A DNA stretch of 33,204 nucleotides from NCBI GenBank assembly GCA_016199585.1, contig JACQGM010000423.1, positions 1-33,204 on the forward strand. Direction: 5' to 3'. Both the position numbers and the translations under genes were made by a program. Below the pieces are notes generated by a model. The model was not told the DNA's origin. It made no database searches and saw only the letters and a program-made list of their open reading frames with translations. Of this stretch, positions 3,262-17,822 are shown piece after piece (positions within the stretch are counted from its first letter, which is position 1; each line of letters opens with the position of its first letter). The DNA is from Armatimonadota bacterium (GTDB taxonomy: Bacteria; Armatimonadota; JAAZEB01).

Positions 3262-4400
3262 CGGAATCCTCCTTCTGTCATCGACGGTAGCCATCCTTCA
3301 GGACGAACACACGGAACCTCCCAGTTTTCGTTCCTCCTTCCCCGCCCCGCGAGTGCCGCGCCGCAGGACGCGCGCACCACCAGGCGCGGCTTCAGGCGGA
3401 CCACCTGCGGGGGCCGGTCCTCGTCCGGGCGCTCGATCCGCTCGAAAAGGAGCGCCACCGCCTGTGCCGCCTGCTCCCTCACCGGCTGCGCCACCGTGGT
3501 GAGGGGAACGGGGGCGAACGCGGCCATCTCGATGTCGTCAAACCCGACGACCGCCATCTCCTCGGGAATCCGGACGCCCGCCTCCGCCAGCGCTCTCATC
3601 ACCCCGAAGGCGTACCGGTCGTTGCTGCAGAAGACGGCCGTGGGTGGCGGCCGGCGCGTCAGCAGTTCCCGGGCGGCCTCATAGGCGCAGACGCAGTACC
3701 CCTCGTCGTCACCGGTCGAGGGGCGAACAAAGATCGGTTCCTCGCCGGGACAACCGTGCTCCGCCAGGGCCTGCCGGTAGCCCAGATGGCGTTCGGCCGA
3801 CTGGGGAGCCGCGGGACGACCGCCCAAGAGGCAGATGCGCCGGTGCCCCAGTTCCAGGAGGTGCTTGGTGAGCAGGTAGGCGCCCGCCATCCGATCCACC
3901 GTGACCACGTCGGCGGGCACGCCCTCCAGCGGCTCCAGGCTGACGACCGGGATCCCCGTCTCGATCAGCTCGCCCAATGGCCCGGGGTAGTCGAGGCCGG
4001 AGTTGAGGACGAGAACTCCCTCGACCGCGCCGCTGGCGAACTCCTGAGCGAACCCGAGCTGCACGCCGTTCAGCTCAGCCGGATGCCGGTAGCGCAGGAG
4101 CGTGCGGTAGCCCCGCTCGCGGATGGCCGCCTCCAGCGCGTGCAGCTTCGTGAGGCTGACGCCCTGCCCCAGGGCCCACGCGAGCACCCCCACCGTCTCG
4201 CTCTTCCCCGTGCGAAGGTGGCGCGCGTGCAGGTTGTGCCGGTACTTCAGCCGCCGGGCCGTCTCCAGCACCCGCTCGCGCGTGGCCGGACCGATGCGGT
4301 GTGCCTCCCCCTTTCCGTTCAGCACCACCGAGACCGTGAATACCGACACCTGCGCCTCCCGCGCCACGTCCCGCATCGTCAGTCGTCCGCTGCCCGCCAT
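3258..4400 (-). CDS. LacI/GalR-family transcriptional regulator
   Basis: A 380-aa ligand-responsive DNA-binding repressor. Residues about 6-53 form the LacI helix-turn-helix and hinge ([20 protein letters not shown], then [16 protein letters not shown]). The rest is a periplasmic-binding-protein-like sensor domain, including [35 protein letters not shown] and [20 protein letters not shown]. About 25 C-terminal residues after VVRASCG are beyond the usual end of the family. The ligand cannot be read from sequence, but a sugar is typical. A GGTGGG precedes the ATG. A near-consensus promoter with a palindrome over the start site lies just upstream, suggesting autoregulation together with the coupled pilin gene. 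Confidence 0.93.
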
Positions 4401-4430
4401 CCCACCATTCCCTCATCCATAAAGCATTAG

Positions 4431-4444
4431 CCTATTCGATTAGG
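4431..4444. promoter_or_regulatory. Putative LacI-family operator (autoregulatory)
   Basis: The sequence cctattcgattagg is a 14-bp palindrome symmetric in 6 of 7 base pairs with a central CG, as is usual for LacI/GalR operators. It covers the predicted transcription start of the regulator gene, where binding would block initiation. Which protein binds is inferred from position. Confidence 0.5.
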
Positions 4445-4448
4445 GCAC

Positions 4449-4477
4449 ATTGTAGCAGGGCATCGCGCGCTTGTCAA
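4449..4477 (-). promoter_or_regulatory. Sigma-70 promoter of the regulator-pilin operon
   Basis: On the minus strand TTGACA (4477-4472), 17 bp, then TACAAT (4454-4449). The -35 box matches consensus and the -10 box has one change. The predicted start near 4442 lies inside the operator-like palindrome. Confidence 0.8.
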
Positions 4478-4519
4478 GGGGGTCTTCAGCATCTGCTTGA
4501 CGTGGCTGCCCCCCACCCC

Positions 4520-5422
4520 TCAAGCCCGGGGGTGCGCCTTCTTGTATGCCTCGTGCAGGCGGCCGGTGGAGACGTGGGTGTAGATCTGGGTGGTGGCGAT
4601 CTGGGCGTGGCCGAGCATCTCCTGGATGGTGCGCAGGTCGGCGCCGCCGTCGAGGAGGTGGGTGGCGAAGGTATGGCGGAGAGTATGGGGCGTGATGTTC
4701 TTCACGATGCCGGCGGCGCCGGCGTGCTTCTTGACCACCCGCCAGAAGCCGGAGCGGCTGAAGGGCCGGCCCCGGTCGGTGAGGAAGAGCTCGGGGGCGC
4801 CGGCTCCATCCCACTGCGGGCGGACGTGCTCCAGGTAGCGCCGCAGCCACTCGGTGGCGTGGCGGCCGATGGTGACGGGGCGCTCCTTGCCCCCTTTGCC
4901 GAAGCAGCGGAGCCACCCGCCCTCCAGGTCCAGATCCTCAAGGCGCGCCGCAAGGATCTCGGAGATGCGCATCCCGGAGCAGTAGAGGGTTTCGAGCATG
5001 GCGCGGTCGCGGATCCCGTTGGGATCGCGGGAGTCGGGCGCCTGGAGCAGGGCATCCACTTCCTCGCGGGTGAGGACGCCGGGGACGCGCCGGTCGGTGC
5101 GGGGGGCATCCACCGTCGCCGCCGGGTTGGTGGTGAGGTAGCCTTCGCGGCAGAGGAACTTGCCGAAGGTGCGCAGCGCCGCCAGCTTCCGCCCGATGCT
5201 GGCCGGCGTCAGCCCCTGTCGCCTCAGGTGGCGGAGAAAGCGGTGGATGTCGGCATCGCCGAGGGTCCCCGGGGCGTCGTGCCGCTCCGGCCCCAGAAAC
5301 CCGCAGAACTGCTCCAGGTCGCGCCGATAGGCGGCGCAAGTGTGCGGCGAAAGCCCGCGCTCGACTGTGAGCTGGCTCACGAAGTCCTCGGCCAGTTCCG
5401 GGAGCGTGGGGACGGGAGACAT
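4520..5422 (-). CDS. Site-specific tyrosine recombinase, XerD-like
   Basis: A 300-aa tyrosine recombinase of the XerC/XerD type, which resolves chromosome dimers at dif sites. Residues 5-95 form the SAM-like DNA-binding core (LSPHTCAAYRRDLEQFCGFL). The catalytic set is complete: Arg152 in SGMRISE, Lys176 in GKGGKERPV, His246 and Arg249 in HTLRHTFATHLLDGG, His272 in GHAQIATT and nucleophile Tyr281 in QIYTHVS. Length and NGIRDRAMLETLY resemble XerD more than XerC, but the assignment to one paralogue is tentative. I take the ATG at 5422. An upstream ATG at 5458 would encode residues read from a repetitive palindrome. It follows rplT in the same direction and may be cotranscribed, with a strong palindrome in between. 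Confidence 0.9.
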   Translation of the reverse strand: MSPVPTLPELAEDFVSQLTVERGLSPHTCAAYRRDLEQFCGFLGPERHDAPGTLGDADIHRFLRHLRRQGLTPASIGRKLAALRTFGKFLCREGYLTTNPAATVDAPRTDRRVPGVLTREEVDALLQAPDSRDPNGIRDRAMLETLYCSGMRISEILAARLEDLDLEGGWLRCFGKGGKERPVTIGRHATEWLRRYLEHVRPQWDGAGAPELFLTDRGRPFSRSGFWRVVKKHAGAAGIVKNITPHTLRHTFATHLLDGGADLRTIQEMLGHAQIATTQIYTHVSTGRLHEAYKKAHPRA

Positions 5423-9207: not shown

Positions 9208-9398
9208 GGTACGTCTGTATCTTGACCTTGCGCTTGGGCTGTGGACACCCGGCCGCCGACCCGGCGCCGCGCTGCTCGAAAACCCCGCGCGCGCAAACAT
9301 GCGATAGAGGTGCGATACAAGACGGTCGCCCGCCGGTCCCGCACGACGTCGCGCTTTGCCGCCCTCTTTGGCGTGCGCACGACCGGGCGCGCACCGCC

Positions 9399-9415
9399 AC
9401 AGGCGAGACGCCTGT
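9399..9415. repeat. Small hairpin ACAGGCG-AGA-CGCCTGT before the peroxidase gene
   Basis: A 7-bp perfect stem with a 3-nt loop, ending 5 bp before the AAGGAGGGAGG ribosome-binding region of the next gene. It looks like a mobile-looking intergenic micro-repeat that I recall from other high-GC bacteria. That recollection is unverified. Confidence 0.6.
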
Positions 9416-9433
9416 CGGGAAAGGAGGGAGGGT

Positions 9434-11647
9434 ATGCGGAGTGAGAGACGGCTCGTGGCCCGCCGCGCGTGGGTGAGCGCGCTCTGCTGGATCGTTGGCC
9501 TGGCGGTTGCGGTGCTGGCGCCCCAGTTGGCCAATACGGCGGAGGAGCCGAGCAACGCGATCGACGCGATCAGGATCAGCGATGTGCCGATCCCGGAGCC
9601 TGCCAACCTGTCGGAGTTCGTGGTGAACCGGCAGGCAGCCATTCAGTTGGGCAAGGCGCTCTTCTGGGACATGCAGGTGGGCAGCGACGGCGTTCAGGCC
9701 TGCGCCACCTGCCACGCCGAGGCCGGCTCCGACCACCGGACCGGGAACGCGGTCAGCCCCGGACTGTTGGACCAGACCGCCGGGGCACAGCCGCCGGTCT
9801 TCAACGTCGGGCAGGACCCGCCGAACCCACCCCGCTCGCACCCCAACGGCACGGTGATCGCGGCGGACTACCCCTTCTACCTCCCCACGATCCCCGATCA
9901 GAAAGTGGATGGGGACAACCCCTTCCAGAGGGAGCACAACGATGTCACCTCGTCGCAAGGCGTGCGGAGCACGCTGTTCCAGAGGATCGTCAAGGGGAAC
10001 CCGGTGGACGAGGGAACACCCCTCCCGGACGACGTGTTCAACGTCGGGGACCCGACTGATGACCGAGCGCGACGCGTGGAGCCGCGCAATACCCCCACGA
10101 TGATTGACGCGATCCGCAACACGGCCCAATTCTGGGATGGCCGGGCCAACTTCTACTTCAACGGCGTGAACCCCTTCGGCCCCGCCTCCGCCGACGCGCG
10201 CATCCTGGTGAACACCGGGGGAAACGTCTCCCTGGTGGCGATTGACCTGCCGTTCAGCAGCCTGGCGTCTCAGGCCGTCGGGCCGCCGCTGAGCGACTTC
10301 GAGATGTCGTGGGCACTCCGCACCTTCGCCAAGCTGGGGAAGAAGATGCTGAGCCTGACGCCGCTGGGCCTGCAGTACGTAGCTCCCACGGACAGCGTCC
10401 TCGGCCCCATCGCGCGCTCCACGACCGCCGGCGCGGTCGGCACCCGCGGGAAGCCCTCGGGTGGCGGGAAGCCTCCCGGCGCCGGCGGCATCAACGGGCT
10501 GGCCGTCTCCTACTCCGACCTGATCAAGCAGGCGTTCGCCGGCAAGCTGTGGAACTCGAACAAGACCGTGGTCATCATCCCCGGCACCGCCGACACGCAC
10601 TCCCCCACCGCCGAAGATCCGCGCACGTTCGTACTGGACAACGGCACGGTGACGATCAAGTCGGGGAGGCCCACGGGCGAGAATGAGTTCACCCAGATGG
10701 AGGCCAACTTCTCCTTCTTCTGGGGGATGGCGATCCAGCTCTATGAGGCCACCCTGGTCTCGGACGACACGGAGTTCGACAAGGCCGTGCGCGGCGAGGC
10801 GACCCTCGACGCCGCCGAACAGCGAGGGAAGGAGATCTTCCAGGGAGTGGGCAAGTGCGAGAACTGCCACGGAGGCCCTGAGTTCACCAACGCCTCGGTG
10901 CGCAACACCCTGCACCTGAGCGACAACAACGACCACCGCGTCGAGTTGATGACCATGGGCGACGGCAACCTGGCCTTCTACGACAACGGCTTCTACAACA
11001 TCAGCCAGACCCGCACCCTGGCGGATATCGGCCGCGGGGGAAGGCATCCGTTCGCCAACCCGATACCGTTGGCGTGGTCCGATCTGGCGGTCGTGAAGGC
11101 GACAAACCCGGGATCGCTCCCGGCGCGGCTGCTGCCGTTCATTCCCGAATTGCCGGGCGAACTGGAGGGCAACCGCACGGCCACCAGGGGCGCCCACAAG
11201 ACGCCGGGCCTGCGCAACATCGCGCTCACCGGGCCTTACTTCCACAATGGCTCGGCGCGCACCCTGCGCCAGGTGGTGCAGTTCTACGTCCGCGGCGGCA
11301 ACTACCCGGATGCCAACATTAACGACCTGGACCCCGATATCGGGGTCATCAGGACATCGCATCCGGACGGGCCGATCCTGAGCTCGGATGACCAGAACGC
11401 CCTGGTGGCGTTCTTGCTCACCCTCACCGACGATGACGTGCGGTGGGAGCGATCCCCCTTCGACCACCCGGAGCTGTGGCTTCCCCTTGATGGGTTGGCG
11501 GCGACCCTGGCCGAGGTGAAGCAGCCCGGGCGCGGGCAGCACCTCCCGGCCGTGGGCGCCGAGGGGCGCACCCAGGCGCAAGGACCGCTCCGGCCGTTCC
11601 TGTGGGACGACAGCGACTCCGAGCTAGATTACCACACCCAGGAGTAG
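9434..11647 (+). CDS. Large diheme cytochrome c peroxidase / MauG-like protein, exported
   Basis: A 737-aa exported c-type diheme protein of the cytochrome c peroxidase/MauG superfamily, which reduces peroxide or performs high-valent iron oxidation in the periplasm. A basic N-terminus and hydrophobic helix (AWVSALCWIVGLAVAVLAP) form a signal peptide or anchor. Heme motifs are CATCH (90-94) and CENCH (475-479). Downstream, ALTGPYFHNGSARTLRQVVQ is typical of the C-terminal heme domain. The two heme motifs are about 385 residues apart, against roughly 145 in classical peroxidases, so a large insertion is present. The start is set by AAGGAGGGAGG at 9421-9431. It follows a SigB-like promoter, and strong hairpins end the gene. 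Neighbouring multicopper oxidase genes suggest linked redox chemistry; the substrate is unknown. Confidence 0.88.
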   Translation: MRSERRLVARRAWVSALCWIVGLAVAVLAPQLANTAEEPSNAIDAIRISDVPIPEPANLSEFVVNRQAAIQLGKALFWDMQVGSDGVQACATCHAEAGSDHRTGNAVSPGLLDQTAGAQPPVFNVGQDPPNPPRSHPNGTVIAADYPFYLPTIPDQKVDGDNPFQREHNDVTSSQGVRSTLFQRIVKGNPVDEGTPLPDDVFNVGDPTDDRARRVEPRNTPTMIDAIRNTAQFWDGRANFYFNGVNPFGPASADARILVNTGGNVSLVAIDLPFSSLASQAVGPPLSDFEMSWALRTFAKLGKKMLSLTPLGLQYVAPTDSVLGPIARSTTAGAVGTRGKPSGGGKPPGAGGINGLAVSYSDLIKQAFAGKLWNSNKTVVIIPGTADTHSPTAEDPRTFVLDNGTVTIKSGRPTGENEFTQMEANFSFFWGMAIQLYEATLVSDDTEFDKAVRGEATLDAAEQRGKEIFQGVGKCENCHGGPEFTNASVRNTLHLSDNNDHRVELMTMGDGNLAFYDNGFYNISQTRTLADIGRGGRHPFANPIPLAWSDLAVVKATNPGSLPARLLPFIPELPGELEGNRTATRGAHKTPGLRNIALTGPYFHNGSARTLRQVVQFYVRGGNYPDANINDLDPDIGVIRTSHPDGPILSSDDQNALVAFLLTLTDDDVRWERSPFDHPELWLPLDGLAATLAEVKQPGRGQHLPAVGAEGRTQAQGPLRPFLWDDSDSELDYHTQE

Positions 11648-11771: not shown

Positions 11772-13139
11772 TCATAGGCCCCCGGCGTTGAGGAGTGGAT
11801 CGGGGATGCCGTCGCTATCGCCCTGGTAGCCATCGGCGAGGGCGGGATCGAACCCCCTGTCCCGCAGCGCCGACCTCACCTGCGCCGGGTCAATCCTCCG
11901 GGTGAGGTCCGGCGCCTCCGCACCGGGAGCGGCCAGGGCAAGCTGCCCGGCGATGTAGAGCGCCGCGGCGCCGGCCACGTGCGGGCTGGCCATGCTGGTG
12001 CCCGACATGGTGGCGTAGGTGCCGCCCGGGTAGGTCGAGTGGATGTTCACCCCGGGCGCCGCGATGCTCACCGCGGCGCCGTAGTTGCTGAAGGAGGCGA
12101 ACCAGTCGTCGCGCCCGTAGGTGGTGCGGCGCCCCCGGCCGCCCGGCAGCCCGTCCGTATCCACGATGGCGGAGACGGTTATCGCATCCGGACAGCTCGC
12201 CGGGCTATAGTTGCCCGCGTCGAAGGAGTTGTTCCCGGCGGCCACGGTGTAGGTGAGCCCGGCCGCCACCGACCTGCTGATCGCCTCGTTGAGCGGATAG
12301 TAGAACGTGCCGCCCAGGCTCATGTTGACGACGTGGATGGGAGGACCCTGGGTGCCATCATCCATCATGCCGCTGGCGTGGCGGGTCACCCAATCCACCC
12401 CGGCGATGACCCAGGAGTAGTAGCCGGAGCCGTTGCGGTCCAGCACCTTCACCGCGTAGAGCGGCGCGCCGGGGGCGACGCCTGCCACGCCCACCCCGTC
12501 TCGCCGTGCGGCGGCGATGCCGGCCACGTGGGTGCCATGACCATGGTCGTCGTTCCCCGAGGCAACCCCTTCCACGGCGCTGAACTCGCCAACCACGTTG
12601 AGATCGGGGTGCTGCCGATCGATGCCGGTGTCGATCACGGCGATGCCCACATGCTGCGCACCGATCTCGCTCACCCGGGCGTTCTCCGCGTCCACGCGGT
12701 TGACACCGGTGGGAATCTCGCCGCTGACGCTGGTGCCCTTGTCGGGTCTGCCCGCGACCCGCTCCATGGGGTCTATGATTCGGATCATCTGGTCGGCATA
12801 GACGCCGGCCACCGCCGGGTCGGCCGCCAGGTGCCGCGCCTGGTCCGCGGAGGCGCGGCCGGCGAAGCCCTGCACTGCGGTGGTGTAGACCACATCCGGC
12901 ACGATATTGTACCGGCGGGCGACGTCGCTGCCAACGATGCCCGGCTTCACCAGAACGATATAGCGCGACGCGCCGGCCCGCGCGACGCGCGAGTCGGCGA
13001 CCATCGTCGGGCCGCCGCCGGCGTTCCCTGACCGGCCCCCGATGGCGCCGCACCCCTGGAACGCGGTGGTCGCCAGCGCCAGACCGGCCATGACGACTCC
13101 CGCGCCCGGGAGCTTCCTGTGCTTGCGTACATGTGTCAT
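11772..13139 (-). CDS. Subtilisin-like serine protease (S8), exported, with I9 propeptide
   Basis: A 455-aa secreted peptidase. Residues 10-30 are hydrophobic and end in FQGC, a possible but non-ideal lipobox. Residues about 57-122 resemble the inhibitor I9 propeptide (SRYIVLVKPGIVGSDVARRY). The catalytic triad is Asp170 in AVIDTGID, His201 in GHGTHVAGIAAARRDG and Ser382 in SGTSMASPHVAGAAALY, with oxyanion Asn303 in VAAGNNSFD. Proteinase K-like spacing is evident. The C-terminus ends in GDSDGIPDPLLNAGG, a fragment resembling a calcium-binding TSP3 repeat. The start at 13139 has AGAGAAG upstream. A longer frame from 13322 adds low-complexity residues before the signal peptide. The gene is divergent from the multicopper oxidase pair and convergent with the peroxidase. 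Confidence 0.93.
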   Translation of the reverse strand: MTHVRKHRKLPGAGVVMAGLALATTAFQGCGAIGGRSGNAGGGPTMVADSRVARAGASRYIVLVKPGIVGSDVARRYNIVPDVVYTTAVQGFAGRASADQARHLAADPAVAGVYADQMIRIIDPMERVAGRPDKGTSVSGEIPTGVNRVDAENARVSEIGAQHVGIAVIDTGIDRQHPDLNVVGEFSAVEGVASGNDDHGHGTHVAGIAAARRDGVGVAGVAPGAPLYAVKVLDRNGSGYYSWVIAGVDWVTRHASGMMDDGTQGPPIHVVNMSLGGTFYYPLNEAISRSVAAGLTYTVAAGNNSFDAGNYSPASCPDAITVSAIVDTDGLPGGRGRRTTYGRDDWFASFSNYGAAVSIAAPGVNIHSTYPGGTYATMSGTSMASPHVAGAAALYIAGQLALAAPGAEAPDLTRRIDPAQVRSALRDRGFDPALADGYQGDSDGIPDPLLNAGGL

Positions 13140-13567: not shown

Positions 13568-14776
13568 ATGGATAGACGTAAGTTCGTGAAGGTCAGCTTG
13601 GGCAGCCTTGCGGCGGTCGTGGCGGAGTCGGTAGCGGCGCCGCTGATGTTCCGCGGCTCGGAAGTCTTCGCAGGGCCGGGGAGTCCGCCGCGCGGCAGAA
13701 CCGGCATCAAGATCGACATCACCGAGGTGTTGGTCGAGATGATCGACCTGACCCAGGTCTACATGTGGGCGTTCGCGGATGGCAAGGCCGGCCCGCGCAT
13801 TCCGGGAACCTATTACTTTGTTCGCGAGGGAGATCCTCTCGACATCAACATCACCAACCGCCTGGATGAGCCGCACGCGTTCGCCATCCTGTCCCGCCCG
13901 GACGGCACCTTCGTGGCGCACACGGGTACCATCGCCCCGAGGAGTTCCTCGCGGCTGCAATTCAACGCCCCGGCGGCCGGCACCTACCTGTACCTGGACC
14001 CGCTGAACAGCCCGGTCAACCGCGTGCTGGGGCTGCACGGCGCCCTGGTGGTGCTGCCCGCGGCGGGGAACACGCCCTACACCAACCCGCCTGCCAGCGT
14101 GCAGGCGCTCTTCGACCACCTGGGCAACAGCCCCCACTTCCCGGGCAGCCCGTGGGACCCGGCCCGCACCTGGATCTGGGTGTTCAACACCATCGACCCC
14201 GCGTTCAACGCCCTGGCCCAGGAGAACCAGGTCATTGACCCGTTAGACTTCCGGGCCCGGTTCCTGCCGCGCTACTTCACGCTCAGCGGCAAGTCGGGCT
14301 TCTTCGCCGCGCACGACCCGCAGATCTCCCCCCACGGGCAGGTGGGCCAGCCGGCGCTGGTCCGCATCCTCAACGCCGGCATGGCGACGCACTCGTCGCA
14401 CATCCACGGCAACCACGTCTACCTGCTCTCCGAGAACAACCAGGTGCGCTCCAATCTGCTCTGGGTGGACACGTGGGCCCTGCCGCCCGCGTGCCGCGTC
14501 GACTGGCTGCTGCCGTTCATGCGGCCGCCCGACCAGGCGGACGGCGCCTGGCCCCCGGTACAGGAACTCGCCCTCGTATTGGGGGATGGCAGCCGGCTGA
14601 ACCCGCTCTCCTACCCCAACCACTGCCACACGGAGATCTCCCAGACGGCGGCCGGCGGCAACTATCCGTCGGGAGCGATCGCCCACTTCGAGATCACCGG
14701 GGATCTGAACGGCCCATTCCCGACGGCGGGCGGGAGCCATGCGACGGCACGGAGAAAGGAGGCGCAGCGTGGCTAG
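13568..14776 (+). CDS. Multicopper oxidase subunit 1: Tat-exported, trinuclear-site half with degenerate type-1 site
   Basis: A 402-aa two-cupredoxin protein. The N-terminus MDRRKFVKVSLGSLAAVVAE is a twin-arginine signal. The first cupredoxin domain (about 48-165) lacks copper ligands: EPHAFA stands where HWHG would be expected. The second (about 200-380) has HSSHIHGNH (His275, 278, 280) and PNHCHTEIS (His352, Cys353, His354). The His and Met that complete a type-1 copper site after HCH are absent (TEISQTAAGG). It can therefore supply four His to a trinuclear cluster but not a normal type-1 site. GAGGAG precedes the ATG. The stop overlaps the GTG of the next oxidase gene by 8 bp, suggesting coupled synthesis. 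It probably acts in the periplasm; the substrate is unknown. Confidence 0.87.
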   Translation: MDRRKFVKVSLGSLAAVVAESVAAPLMFRGSEVFAGPGSPPRGRTGIKIDITEVLVEMIDLTQVYMWAFADGKAGPRIPGTYYFVREGDPLDINITNRLDEPHAFAILSRPDGTFVAHTGTIAPRSSSRLQFNAPAAGTYLYLDPLNSPVNRVLGLHGALVVLPAAGNTPYTNPPASVQALFDHLGNSPHFPGSPWDPARTWIWVFNTIDPAFNALAQENQVIDPLDFRARFLPRYFTLSGKSGFFAAHDPQISPHGQVGQPALVRILNAGMATHSSHIHGNHVYLLSENNQVRSNLLWVDTWALPPACRVDWLLPFMRPPDQADGAWPPVQELALVLGDGSRLNPLSYPNHCHTEISQTAAGGNYPSGAIAHFEITGDLNGPFPTAGGSHATARRKEAQRG

Positions 14777-15866
14777 GGGACCAAATCGACCGCGAGGACT
14801 CACCGTCCTCCGGCGCGACCCGATCGAGGACGAGATGCATTTCCGGAAGTTCTACTGTCCGCCGACGGAGCCGAACTTCACGCCGGACGCGGTGACGCCG
14901 ACGGTGCAGATCCGCAGGGAACTGATGCGCAACATCGACCTGACGATGCCCGATGGCAGAGAGGTCGAGATGTGGGTGGTAGAAGACCCGGACGCGCCGG
15001 ACGGCGAGCGGCGGCAATTCCCATCGCGCATGGTCCGGGTGAGCCGGGGCGAGATCGTCCATGCCAGGGTGGGCGCGCACACGAACACCCACACCATCCA
15101 CTGGCACGGCATCGAGCCGTGCCCTGCTCACGATGGCGTGGGCAAATCGACCTTCGAGATCTCGGGGAACTACACCTACCAGTGGCAGCCTCGCTTCTCC
15201 GGCACCTACCTCTTCCACTGCCACAAGAACACTGTGCTCCACTTCGAGATGGGCCTTTACGGGTATCTCATCATAGACCCGCCAGGGACGGACCCGAACG
15301 TCTTCCCCCGGCGGGCGTTCGACGGCGGACCGGTGTACCACGTGGAGGCCTTCTGGGCCGGCGACGAGATCGACTCGCGCTGGCACACCCTGGGCCATGA
15401 CGCCTTCATGCGCGGCTGCGACATCGACGCGCCGTTCACCACGGACGGGTTCCTGAACGAGTTCAACCCGGACTACTTCGTGGTCACCGGTGTGCCCTCG
15501 GTCGCCGGGCAACCGATCACCGACGCGCGCGTGACCATCAACGCCGTCGTGGGGCAGACCATCCTCATCCGCGTCCTGAACGGCGGTTACTGCATCCAGA
15601 ACTACTCCCTGCCCGCCCTGGGCGCGCAGGTGATCGCCGTGGATGGCCGGGCATTGGGTCAAGCGCCGTTCGGCCAGTACTCCCAGCCCTACGCGCTCCC
15701 GGCCGGGACGCCGCTGTCACTGACCACCGCGCGGCGCGCCGACCTCCTGATCACCCCCACGGCCGCGCAGGTCGGCGCCCACCGCGCCCGCGTGGAGTTC
15801 GTCCACTGGATCAGCGGTGAGGTGCTGCACGTGGCGGAGACCCTCATCCAGGTGGCTGCCGCCTGA
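14769..15866 (+). CDS. Multicopper oxidase subunit 2: type-1 site plus trinuclear half, no signal peptide
   Basis: A 365-aa protein with two cupredoxin domains. Domain 1 (about 45-170) has THTIHWHGIEP (His108, 111, 113) and LFHCHKNTVLHFEMGLYG (His150, Cys151, His152, His158, Met161), a complete type-1 set plus four trinuclear His. Domain 2 (about 235-362) has the fold signature ILIRVLNGGYCIQNYSLPAL and VIAVDG but no copper ligands. The GTG start is set by AAAGGAGG ending 6 nt before it, and it overlaps the upstream oxidase stop. Neither this start nor an in-frame ATG at 14739 provides a signal peptide or Tat motif. The copper-ligand complementarity with the upstream protein suggests one heteromeric oxidase. 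Confidence 0.88.
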   Translation: MARGPNRPRGLTVLRRDPIEDEMHFRKFYCPPTEPNFTPDAVTPTVQIRRELMRNIDLTMPDGREVEMWVVEDPDAPDGERRQFPSRMVRVSRGEIVHARVGAHTNTHTIHWHGIEPCPAHDGVGKSTFEISGNYTYQWQPRFSGTYLFHCHKNTVLHFEMGLYGYLIIDPPGTDPNVFPRRAFDGGPVYHVEAFWAGDEIDSRWHTLGHDAFMRGCDIDAPFTTDGFLNEFNPDYFVVTGVPSVAGQPITDARVTINAVVGQTILIRVLNGGYCIQNYSLPALGAQVIAVDGRALGQAPFGQYSQPYALPAGTPLSLTTARRADLLITPTAAQVGAHRARVEFVHWISGEVLHVAETLIQVAAA

Positions 15867-15926: not shown

Positions 15927-17822
15927 TCAAGCGGCGGATGACAGAATCGTCGGCGTGATGAAGATCAGCACCTCGCTGGATCCCCGCCGCTTGCTGCGGA
16001 AGCGGAAGAGCTCGCCGATCAGCGGCAAGTCGCCCAGGGCGGGCACTTTCTGCATCGTCACGATATCCTCGTCGCGGATCAGCCCGCCGATGGCCAACGT
16101 CTCACCGTCGCGCAAGCGCACCACCGTCTCGACGGAGCGCTCGGAGGTGTTCGGCACCTGGCCACCGTCGCCGGTGGCGGTGAAGCCGGTAATGACGTTC
16201 ACTTGCGGGCGAATGTCGAGGGTGATCGCGCTGTCGCCGCCGATGCGCGGGGTGACACTGAGCACCACGCCGACGTCCGCGGAGCCGATCTGCACCGTCG
16301 TGCCGTTGATGCCCGCAACGCGGCTCTCGAGGTAGCGGATCGTATCGCCCACGTGGATGCTGGCTGTGTTGCCGTCGAGCACGGCGATGCGCGGATTGGC
16401 GAGGAGCTGCGCCTGATCGCTGCTCACCAACGCCTCCAGGGTCGCGTTGAGGCTCACCGGCACGTGCCCGAAGCGGCCGAGCTCCATTCCCGGCGCCACG
16501 CTGGTCGTGCCGCCCACGGGCGCCACCTCGTGGATCCCGAAGGTGCTCCAGTTCCAGGTGACGCCGAGCCGCGTCAGGTCATTGAGCGAGACATCGGCCA
16601 CCTTCAGGTCAATCATGACCTGCGGCGGCGGCACGTCGAGCTGCTCCAGATACTCCCGAACCGGGGGGATATTCTCGGGCTGCCCGATCAAGACGAGTGT
16701 TCGCGTTGTGCTGCCCTCGGGGATGGCGATGGTGGATCCCTCGCCGGGCGGCAGCGACTGCCCGGGCCCCGAGCGTGGCACCGACGGCGCCAGGGCCGCC
16801 ATGGCCGTCCGCACCGCAGCGTCGGGGTCCGCAGCGCCAGCCTGGCCGGCATCTGCGGCCGGTCCGGCCGCGGGTGCCGCAGGCGGCTGCCCGCCGAGCA
16901 CCAGGTTCAGGAGGGCCGCGGCGGGGTCGGCGGCCGGCTGATGGCGAGCACCCGAGGGTGGAGCCCCTTTGACCGAGGGGAGCACGGGCGTCGGTGCCGG
17001 CGTGATCACCACCGGCGGCAGGATCCTCGCCTTCATCAGGCCTTCGACGATCCGTCCGGCCTCAACCGCGCTGACCCACTTGAGCGTGTACATCTGCAGG
17101 GCCAGCTTGGGTGGCCTGGCCGCCGTGCCAGGCGGCGGCGCCGACGAGGGCGGCGGCGCCAGGGCCGGCACGGCGGCCTCGAGGGCCCGAATCCCCTCCT
17201 GCGCCAACTGAACTTGCTCCGCCGCGCCGAACAGCACGAGCACGTGCTTCTCGACAGCTTCCACTCGGAGGCCCGGAGCCAGTTTCTGCACCAGGCCCAC
17301 CACCTCGGCAGCCGGCACTCGCGTGGTGCGAACCGTTCGCATCTCCGGCGGTGTGGCAGAGGCGGTCACCGAGAGAGCGGCCTGCTCACCCGGTTCGCCC
17401 GAGGGCGGGAAGACGACCCGACCGCGAGAGCCGGCGGGAAAGAAGGTCGCGGTCTGGTCGCGCGGGCACACGAGGTACATGTTCCCGTCCCGACCATAGG
17501 CCAACCCCGTGGAGCGCACGACATACTCCAGGGCTTCCTCCGGCGCGCGGTTGCGCATGCGTATGGTCACTTTCCCTGTGACCCCTGGTGTGACGATGAT
17601 GTCCGCGCCAATCTGGATGGATAGCGCTGTAAGCACATCCTGGACGCTCGCGTCAACGAAGTCCAAAGAGATGAGTCGTTGGTTGCCCACCTTGGCGCCC
17701 ACGGCCGGCGGCGCCCCGGGGGCGGCGTGAGTCACGGCGATCGGCGCTCCCGGTAGACCGAGAGCAGCACCGCAGAGTGCTGCCTGGAGTCTCAACCGGC
17801 CGCTCCTCCGACGTGTGTCCAT
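15927..17822 (-). CDS. Secretin (GspD/PilQ family), outer-membrane channel
   Basis: A 631-aa secretin, the ring-forming outer-membrane gate of type II secretion or type IV pilus systems. After a signal-like region (LRLQAALCGAALGLPGAPIA), residues about 48-120 form an STN/N0-type domain (ISLDFVDASVQDVLTALSIQ). Ring-building segments follow at about 160-215 and 240-275, separated by Pro/Ala-rich linkers. The C-terminal half holds the secretin domain (QVMIDLKVADVSLNDLTRLG), NPRIAVLDGNTASIHVGDTI and the closing VPALGDLPLIGELFRFRSKR. No other secretion or pilus genes adjoin, so it is an orphan here; the prepilin at 2521 is a possible partner. The ATG at 17822 follows AGGGTGCAGAGC. A SigB-like promoter lies about 156 bp upstream. 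Confidence 0.93.
   Translation of the reverse strand: MDTRRRSGRLRLQAALCGAALGLPGAPIAVTHAAPGAPPAVGAKVGNQRLISLDFVDASVQDVLTALSIQIGADIIVTPGVTGKVTIRMRNRAPEEALEYVVRSTGLAYGRDGNMYLVCPRDQTATFFPAGSRGRVVFPPSGEPGEQAALSVTASATPPEMRTVRTTRVPAAEVVGLVQKLAPGLRVEAVEKHVLVLFGAAEQVQLAQEGIRALEAAVPALAPPPSSAPPPGTAARPPKLALQMYTLKWVSAVEAGRIVEGLMKARILPPVVITPAPTPVLPSVKGAPPSGARHQPAADPAAALLNLVLGGQPPAAPAAGPAADAGQAGAADPDAAVRTAMAALAPSVPRSGPGQSLPPGEGSTIAIPEGSTTRTLVLIGQPENIPPVREYLEQLDVPPPQVMIDLKVADVSLNDLTRLGVTWNWSTFGIHEVAPVGGTTSVAPGMELGRFGHVPVSLNATLEALVSSDQAQLLANPRIAVLDGNTASIHVGDTIRYLESRVAGINGTTVQIGSADVGVVLSVTPRIGGDSAITLDIRPQVNVITGFTATGDGGQVPNTSERSVETVVRLRDGETLAIGGLIRDEDIVTMQKVPALGDLPLIGELFRFRSKRRGSSEVLIFITPTILSSAA

Follow-up and report, generated by a model that had tools for sequence, protein, structure and literature searches.

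Organization of the gene pair

The window, a stretch of 33,204 nt from an Armatimonadota bacterium (contig JACQGM010000423.1, positions 1 to 33,204), carries two overlapping genes on its forward strand, here called A and B. Gene A (13568..14776; ATG at 13568, stop codon TAG at 14774-14776) encodes a two-domain cupredoxin subunit of 402 aa that is predicted to be exported by Tat, and gene B (14769..15866, also + strand, with the start codon GTG at 14769) encodes a two-domain cupredoxin subunit of 365 aa with a type-1 (T1) copper site. The two coding regions overlap by 8 nt, and the Shine-Dalgarno sequence of gene B, AAAGGAGG (14755-14762, + strand), lies inside the 3' end of A, 6 bases 5' of the GTG. 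The coupling of the genes and the ribosome-binding site of the second, which had been proposed in a sequence-only reading of this DNA, were thus confirmed. On the opposite strand, the pair is flanked by genes for a secretin (GspD/PilQ-like, 15930-17780) and a subtilase (11775-13136). No A-B pair other than this one was detected in the genome, an assembly of 449 contigs that is approximately 80% complete.

When the proteins were compared with Pfam, both B and A matched Cu-oxidase_3 and Cu-oxidase_2, the latter being weak in A: the score of A was 26.8 for PF07732 (cut-off 21) and 19.1 for PF07731, just below the cut-off of 20.4, and B was above the cut-off for both families. The overall similarity of the pair to characterised oxidases was low, and the closest solved structures, none of which is closely related to the pair, were those of two-domain oxidases and nitrite reductases. 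An assignment to the copper nitrite reductases was rejected, as A scored 25.8 with TIGR02376 (cut-off 296.3) and B gave no match.

Copper ligands of A and B

The copper ligands were counted in 29 A-B pairs from Chloroflexi, Poribacteria, Deltaproteobacteria, Alphaproteobacteria, Actinobacteria, and the window's own phylum. In A, the conserved motifs are in domain 2. The motif H275SSHIHGNH283 (14390..14416, + strand) contains the trinuclear cluster (TNC) ligands H278 and H280, and H352-C-H354 (14621..14629, + strand) contains two T3-type TNC ligands; H278, H280, H283, H352, and H354 were invariant in all 29 pairs, in agreement with the earlier claim that the first protein holds four trinuclear histidines (H278, H280, H352, and H354). 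Cys353 was poorly kept, being Cys in 5 of 29 orthologs and D, S, or G in the others, and the later T1 His and the axial residue are missing, showing that A has no T1 site. The His at the first T1 position (H275), which was substituted in 6 of the 29 pairs, is present in the window, and the statement that the first protein lacks the T1 His and Met therefore holds for the later His and the axial residue only. Domain 1 of A (residues ~45-165; 13700..14062, + strand) is a D1-type cupredoxin domain devoid of the TNC/T1 ligand set: there were no conserved HxH sets at the positions aligned with the ordinary D1 ligands, and an invariant Asp144 occupies the position expected for the T1 Cys.

The invariant residues of B (H108, H111, H113, H150, C151, H152, and H158 in 29 pairs) are all located in domain 1. 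The motif H108TIHWH113 (15090..15107, + strand; 29/29) provides T1 His108 and TNC His111 and His113, and the motif H150-C151-H152-KNTVL-H158-FEMGL163 (15216..15257, + strand) provides TNC His150 and His152, T1 Cys151 and His158, and Leu163 at the axial position. The H, C, H, and H of the latter motif were found in 29/29 pairs, and the axial position (T1 His+5) was occupied by Leu in 22/29 and by Met in 7/29. It is at His+5 that the usual axial Met of the type-C two-domain oxidases aligns, and the solved oxidase 3gdc likewise has a Leu there. M161 (T1 His+3) was Met in 15/29 pairs and Phe, Tyr, Leu, or Ile in the remainder. Four trinuclear His and a full T1 site had been read from the second protein; the His and Cys ligands stood, and the axial residue is Leu163, not Met161. 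To judge from these alignments, the T1 site of B is complete save for a Leu that is probably non-coordinating. Domain 2 of B (residues ~185-365; 15321..15863, + strand) is a D2-type cupredoxin domain without copper ligands, and no His in it was conserved throughout the 23 pairs aligned. Each protein thus contains one ligand-free cupredoxin domain, A domain 1 and B domain 2, as had been anticipated.

Taken together, the eight trinuclear His, the T1 Cys, and both T1 His were invariant in 29/29 pairs, and the His were always split 4+4. Since all eight cluster His are kept in every pair, the ligand split cannot be due to chance. The multicopper oxidase signature (eight His in four HxH motifs plus the T1 Cys-His2) was complete only when A and B were considered jointly, and this was so in 29/29. 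One might suppose that A and B form a relic with a copper-storing or structural role, in which the ligands have been retained and the oxidase activity has been lost, as the low overall similarity to characterised oxidases and the axial Leu in place of Met in most members could suggest. However, the T1 and trinuclear ligands are strictly kept across wide divergence, and the Leu is shared by an oxidase of solved structure (3gdc), and of the explanations considered we give this one the least weight.

Distribution and pairing in other genomes

The same gene pair was found in related genomes, in accordance with what the sequence-only reading had suggested looking for; at least 29 pairs are known across several phyla, and some of the loci sampled come from metagenome-assembled genomes. 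When a genome collection was scanned, four B relatives were found in groundwater genomes (two Chloroflexi, one Poribacteria, and one Deltaproteobacteria), with an A relative immediately upstream wherever the upstream sequence sufficed. These four genomes contain up to five pairs each, always in the order A then B; the five pairs of one deltaproteobacterial metagenome-assembled genome (G294; L012, L047-L050) are paralogous. More pairs were present in the class of one of the Chloroflexi genomes, adjacent save at contig ends, and in a plasmid collection Indioceanicola profundi was found to carry two. The ortholog search in the window's phylum (291 genomes) gave generic oxidases only.

Among 297 genomes from the phylum to which the deltaproteobacterial relative belongs, there were 15 strong A and 15 strong B matches, which were paired 1:1 and fell in the same eight genomes. 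Occurrence of each protein alone in many genomes, which would have spoken against a shared enzyme, was thus not observed. A directly precedes B at every locus with room for it, with Paenarthrobacter aurescens as the one exception, and the pairwise distance matrices of A and B were correlated with r = 0.91 (0/5000 permutations). In two named genomes, the annotation of A reads hypothetical or 'Tat domain' protein and that of B describes an oxidase on its own, and on one of two plasmids of I. profundi the two genes bear the labels 'hypothetical protein' and, for the other, 'multicopper oxidase domain-containing protein'. With such labels, the enzyme is easily overlooked.

A fused version of the two genes had also been sought. 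On plasmid NZ_CP084562.1 of Arthrobacter sp. FW305-BF8 (L108 5719-8066), A and B are nearly fused into a single coding stretch: the reading frame of A continues, uninterrupted by a stop codon, into the N-terminal region of B, and the frame shifts within B near a GGGG run. The locus represents either a fusion that has decayed or a genuine one that contains a sequencing error. It is the only near-fused locus among the sampled genomes, in which no in-frame, uninterrupted A-B fusion was found. Its neighbours are Nramp, a metal-dependent regulator, and another multicopper oxidase. The sole lone A seen is AAur_pTC10171 of P. aurescens TC1 plasmid pTC1 (L107 5416-6996), and here a decayed B fragment (L127 3001-3259) lies approximately 7 kb upstream of A.

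Export signals

The N-terminus of A, MDRRKF, contains the twin-arginine motif RRKF (residues 3-6; 13574..13585, + strand). An RR-x-F/V start followed by a hydrophobic stretch was present in 20 of the 21 A orthologs listed, and likewise in the A of the window; the exception was the P. aurescens protein, which has RWSF. When 23 B proteins were inspected by motif and hydropathy judgement, not by a dedicated predictor, none had a recognisable signal peptide. Among two-subunit redox enzymes, it is known for a passenger protein to be carried across by a partner that bears the Tat signal. Because A bears the sole export signal (Tat) and B has none, we infer that B is probably exported together with A, which is consistent with an A-B complex forming before export.

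The possibility was considered that A and B only have an operon in common and are separate homo-oligomeric enzymes or copper-binding proteins. In its favour, homotrimers are known in the family of two-domain cupredoxins to which both belong, and P. aurescens TC1 holds an A with only a remnant of B. On the other hand, the genes occur 1:1, B lacks a signal for its own export, and A domain 1 and B domain 2 are ligand-free throughout, leaving a homotrimer of either protein short of eight His. An active homo-oligomer of each protein had been named by the sequence-only reading as contrary to its proposal; by this ligand count, an independent homo-oligomeric A or B was rejected. We regard the operon of two separate enzymes as very improbable.

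Origin of A and B

Ordinary type-C two-domain oxidases, with the T1 site in D1 and eight His per chain, are present in the phylum that contains many of the pairs, and profiles of D1 and D2 were built from such oxidases. The D1 profile gave 30-50 bits with A_D1 and 58-95 bits with B_D1, and the D2 profile gave 22-53 bits with A_D2; the opposite profile gave at most 16 bits. B_D2 was matched weakly by the D2 profile, with 12-18 bits in the short clade and near zero in the long-chain clade. Profile-profile alignments with the type-C oxidases spanned both domains of A and both domains of B, and in the tree A formed one clade and B formed one clade. The pair thus shares common descent and the D1-D2 order with type C (weakly in the case of B_D2), but not the location of all eight His and the T1 site in one polypeptide, since A has four His and no T1 site, and B has four His and the T1 site.

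The domain profiles and the alignments over both domains argue for descent from a whole oxidase and against a cut in the middle of a gene. On this evidence, A and B each derive from a whole two-domain (type C) oxidase by duplication and complementary loss: the gene of a homotrimeric two-domain oxidase would have been duplicated, after which the A copy lost the D1 ligands and the B copy lost the D2 ligands.

Structure models

A and B were read as a single chain by means of an artificial one-base step at A residue 401, and the alignment contained 37 ortholog rows. A programmed frameshift linking A and B is not proposed; the joined reading (P0003) is artificial and served for modelling only. AlphaFold2 gave a pTM of 0.84 and a mean pLDDT of 80 for the A+B chain, and a pTM of 0.85 for the ortholog pair L048. 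In Foldseek searches, the best matches of the window model were ceruloplasmin, MnxG, and clotting factors (TMq 0.47-0.52, with whole-length alignments), and three-domain laccases gave 0.27-0.31; the L048 model gave TMq 0.41-0.44 with ceruloplasmin/MnxG and 0.23 with a two-domain laccase, which covered one half only. Most superpositions with these ring proteins had a high rmsd, 8-16 Å over all columns, and a single chain of tandem cupredoxins may bias the predictor towards a ceruloplasmin-like arc. In the models, a single ring superposition seems to accommodate both halves, with A2|B1 seemingly falling at an even/odd domain contact. It is an even/odd domain contact that bears the trinuclear cluster in the ring proteins (PMC3600357).

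The proposed enzyme

We propose, with a probability of roughly 80%, that A and B are subunits of one extracytoplasmic multicopper oxidase that originated by duplication and complementary loss and has its trinuclear cluster at the A/B contact. The coupling of the genes, the ligand split and its conservation, the pairing, the distribution of the export signals, and the parentage of the domains are shown by the sequences; the physical complex, copper loading, catalysis, co-export, stoichiometry, and substrate are inferred. Judging from the division of the ligands, the enzyme most likely works only once the two different proteins have joined. The A|B contact is the expected site of the cluster, since two-domain oxidases hold their cluster between the protomers of a trimer (PMC13151041). 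The cluster would form where A domain 2 (His278, 280, 352, and 354) docks on B domain 1 (His111, 113, 150, and 152). The sole type-1 copper would be bound in B by His108, Cys151, and His158, with Leu163 at the axial position, and would be joined to the cluster via His150-Cys151-His152. Electrons of the reducing substrate would thus enter at the T1 site of B and pass through Cys151 and the flanking His150 and His152 to the cluster, and O2 would be reduced to water at the A/B interface, with A domain 1 and B domain 2 acting as scaffolding. The complex is likely to fold while still in the cytoplasm, and B would leave with A by the Tat route.

One cluster at the interface of a heterodimer, which electrons would reach through subunit 2 only, had been proposed originally. 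The ligand split and the pairing support a single cluster between two different subunits, and the lack of a T1 site in A agrees with the proposed route of the electrons, but a heterodimer is not established: since the parent type forms homotrimers, the complex could equally well be a heterotrimer (A2B, AB2, or one with a third chain). For a heterotrimeric ring of A2B, AB2, or A, B, and another two-domain protein, with one cluster at A2|B1, we consider the chances to be about even; such a ring would be a form of the enzyme proposed here and does not compete with it. Such a ring would be in line with the trimeric structure of the two-domain oxidases, in which the cluster lies between protomers (PMC13151041), and with the second split family described below, which encodes three chains, one of them ligand-free. 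In addition, at locus L138 a further two-domain oxidase-like gene (4037-5077, C-terminal HCHVESHADAGM) directly follows A-B and may encode a third ring chain. Conversely, most A-B pairs, including that of the window, have no adjoining third cupredoxin gene, and the high pTM was reached with one A and one B.

With regard to the neighbours of the proposed oxidase, a gene for a large di-haem cytochrome c peroxidase (CCP_MauG) with two CxxCH motifs (9356..11647, + strand) is present in the window and recurs near A-B, six loci in all having such a gene. The other five are L110 (14846-18073), L113 (4451-6577), L117 (2203-5097, 5704-7395, and 13734-16670; L010 is the same locus), L119 (6482-8734), and L124 (3070-5220). 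CCP_MauG is a possible electron-transfer, maturation, or functional partner. A CusB-like adaptor with YHS domain(s) is encoded by two A-B loci (L109 10985-15929 and L116 12368-14731), in L109 beside a CusA-like RND pump. The neighbours alone, i.e. the di-haem peroxidases, Cus-type efflux genes, and Nramp, hint at a metal ion or a cytochrome as the electron donor, and we tentatively consider such a substrate as likely as a phenol.

Comparison with known systems

A second family of split oxidases is encoded by three adjacent genes in the order B'-A'-C', where B' has the T1 site and half of the cluster, A' has the other half cluster, and C' is ligand-free. Such loci are L082 (685-4947), L083, L084, L085, L086, L087 (1130-4738), and L088, as well as those of Cupriavidus metallidurans CH34 (NC_007974.2, L125 6948-18695) and Paraburkholderia largidicola (L126 7302-18721); in Burkholderiaceae, C' is the start of a protein of ~2,700 aa. 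The family differs from A-B in its gene order, in the Sec-like signal peptides on the chains inspected, and in forming a separate clade in the tree. It is probably a second, independent division of the ligands, and its products would form a ceruloplasmin-like ring with one cluster. The literature searched contained no description of this three-gene split.

To our knowledge, each of the two-domain oxidase types (A, B, and C) is defined on the basis of a single chain, and so are the six-domain proteins. The literature searched, from which subscription papers and preprints were mostly absent, described no multicopper oxidase that is heteromeric or split and has its ligands spread over more than one gene. 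We are inclined, with some reserve, to view the pair as a new class of obligately heteromeric oxidase, in which a homotrimer with several identical clusters has given way to one cluster per A|B, with Tat piggyback export and with a second origin as a three-gene ring. The pair is likely to be a new case of Tat co-export, and nature would here provide a trinuclear copper cluster that could be dismantled and then reassembled from two separate proteins. A descent from two-domain oxidases, by tripling within the chain and loss of sites, has been proposed for ceruloplasmin, the clotting factors, and MnxG (PMC3600357). In A-B a comparable loss of copper sites has taken place between separate genes, which makes that evolutionary step open to study in living bacteria.

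Three known groups resemble the pair in part. The copper nitrite reductases (NirK/AniA) are two-domain cupredoxin trimers with copper between the protomers; they are, however, homotrimers with one type-2 copper, whereas a trinuclear cluster is predicted for A-B. In ceruloplasmin and MnxG, as in A-B, several cupredoxin domains are free of ligands, and one trinuclear cluster, as predicted for A-B, lies at an even/odd interface; they have their T1 sites in even domains and the cluster at D6|D1 or D2|D3 (PMC3600357). These proteins consist of one polypeptide, whereas A-B is split into two two-domain chains, with the T1 site in the odd (first) domain of B, and thus does not have the six domains per chain and the even-domain T1 site of a six-domain oxidase. 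The type-C two-domain oxidases (e.g. PDB 2zwn and 3g5w; L092-L099) are like A-B in their D1-D2 order and in having the T1 site and half of the cluster in D1 and the other half in D2, as is the case across B and A. Unlike these homotrimers, in which every chain carries all ligands, A-B has its ligands distributed over two genes, with one ligand-free domain in each protein.
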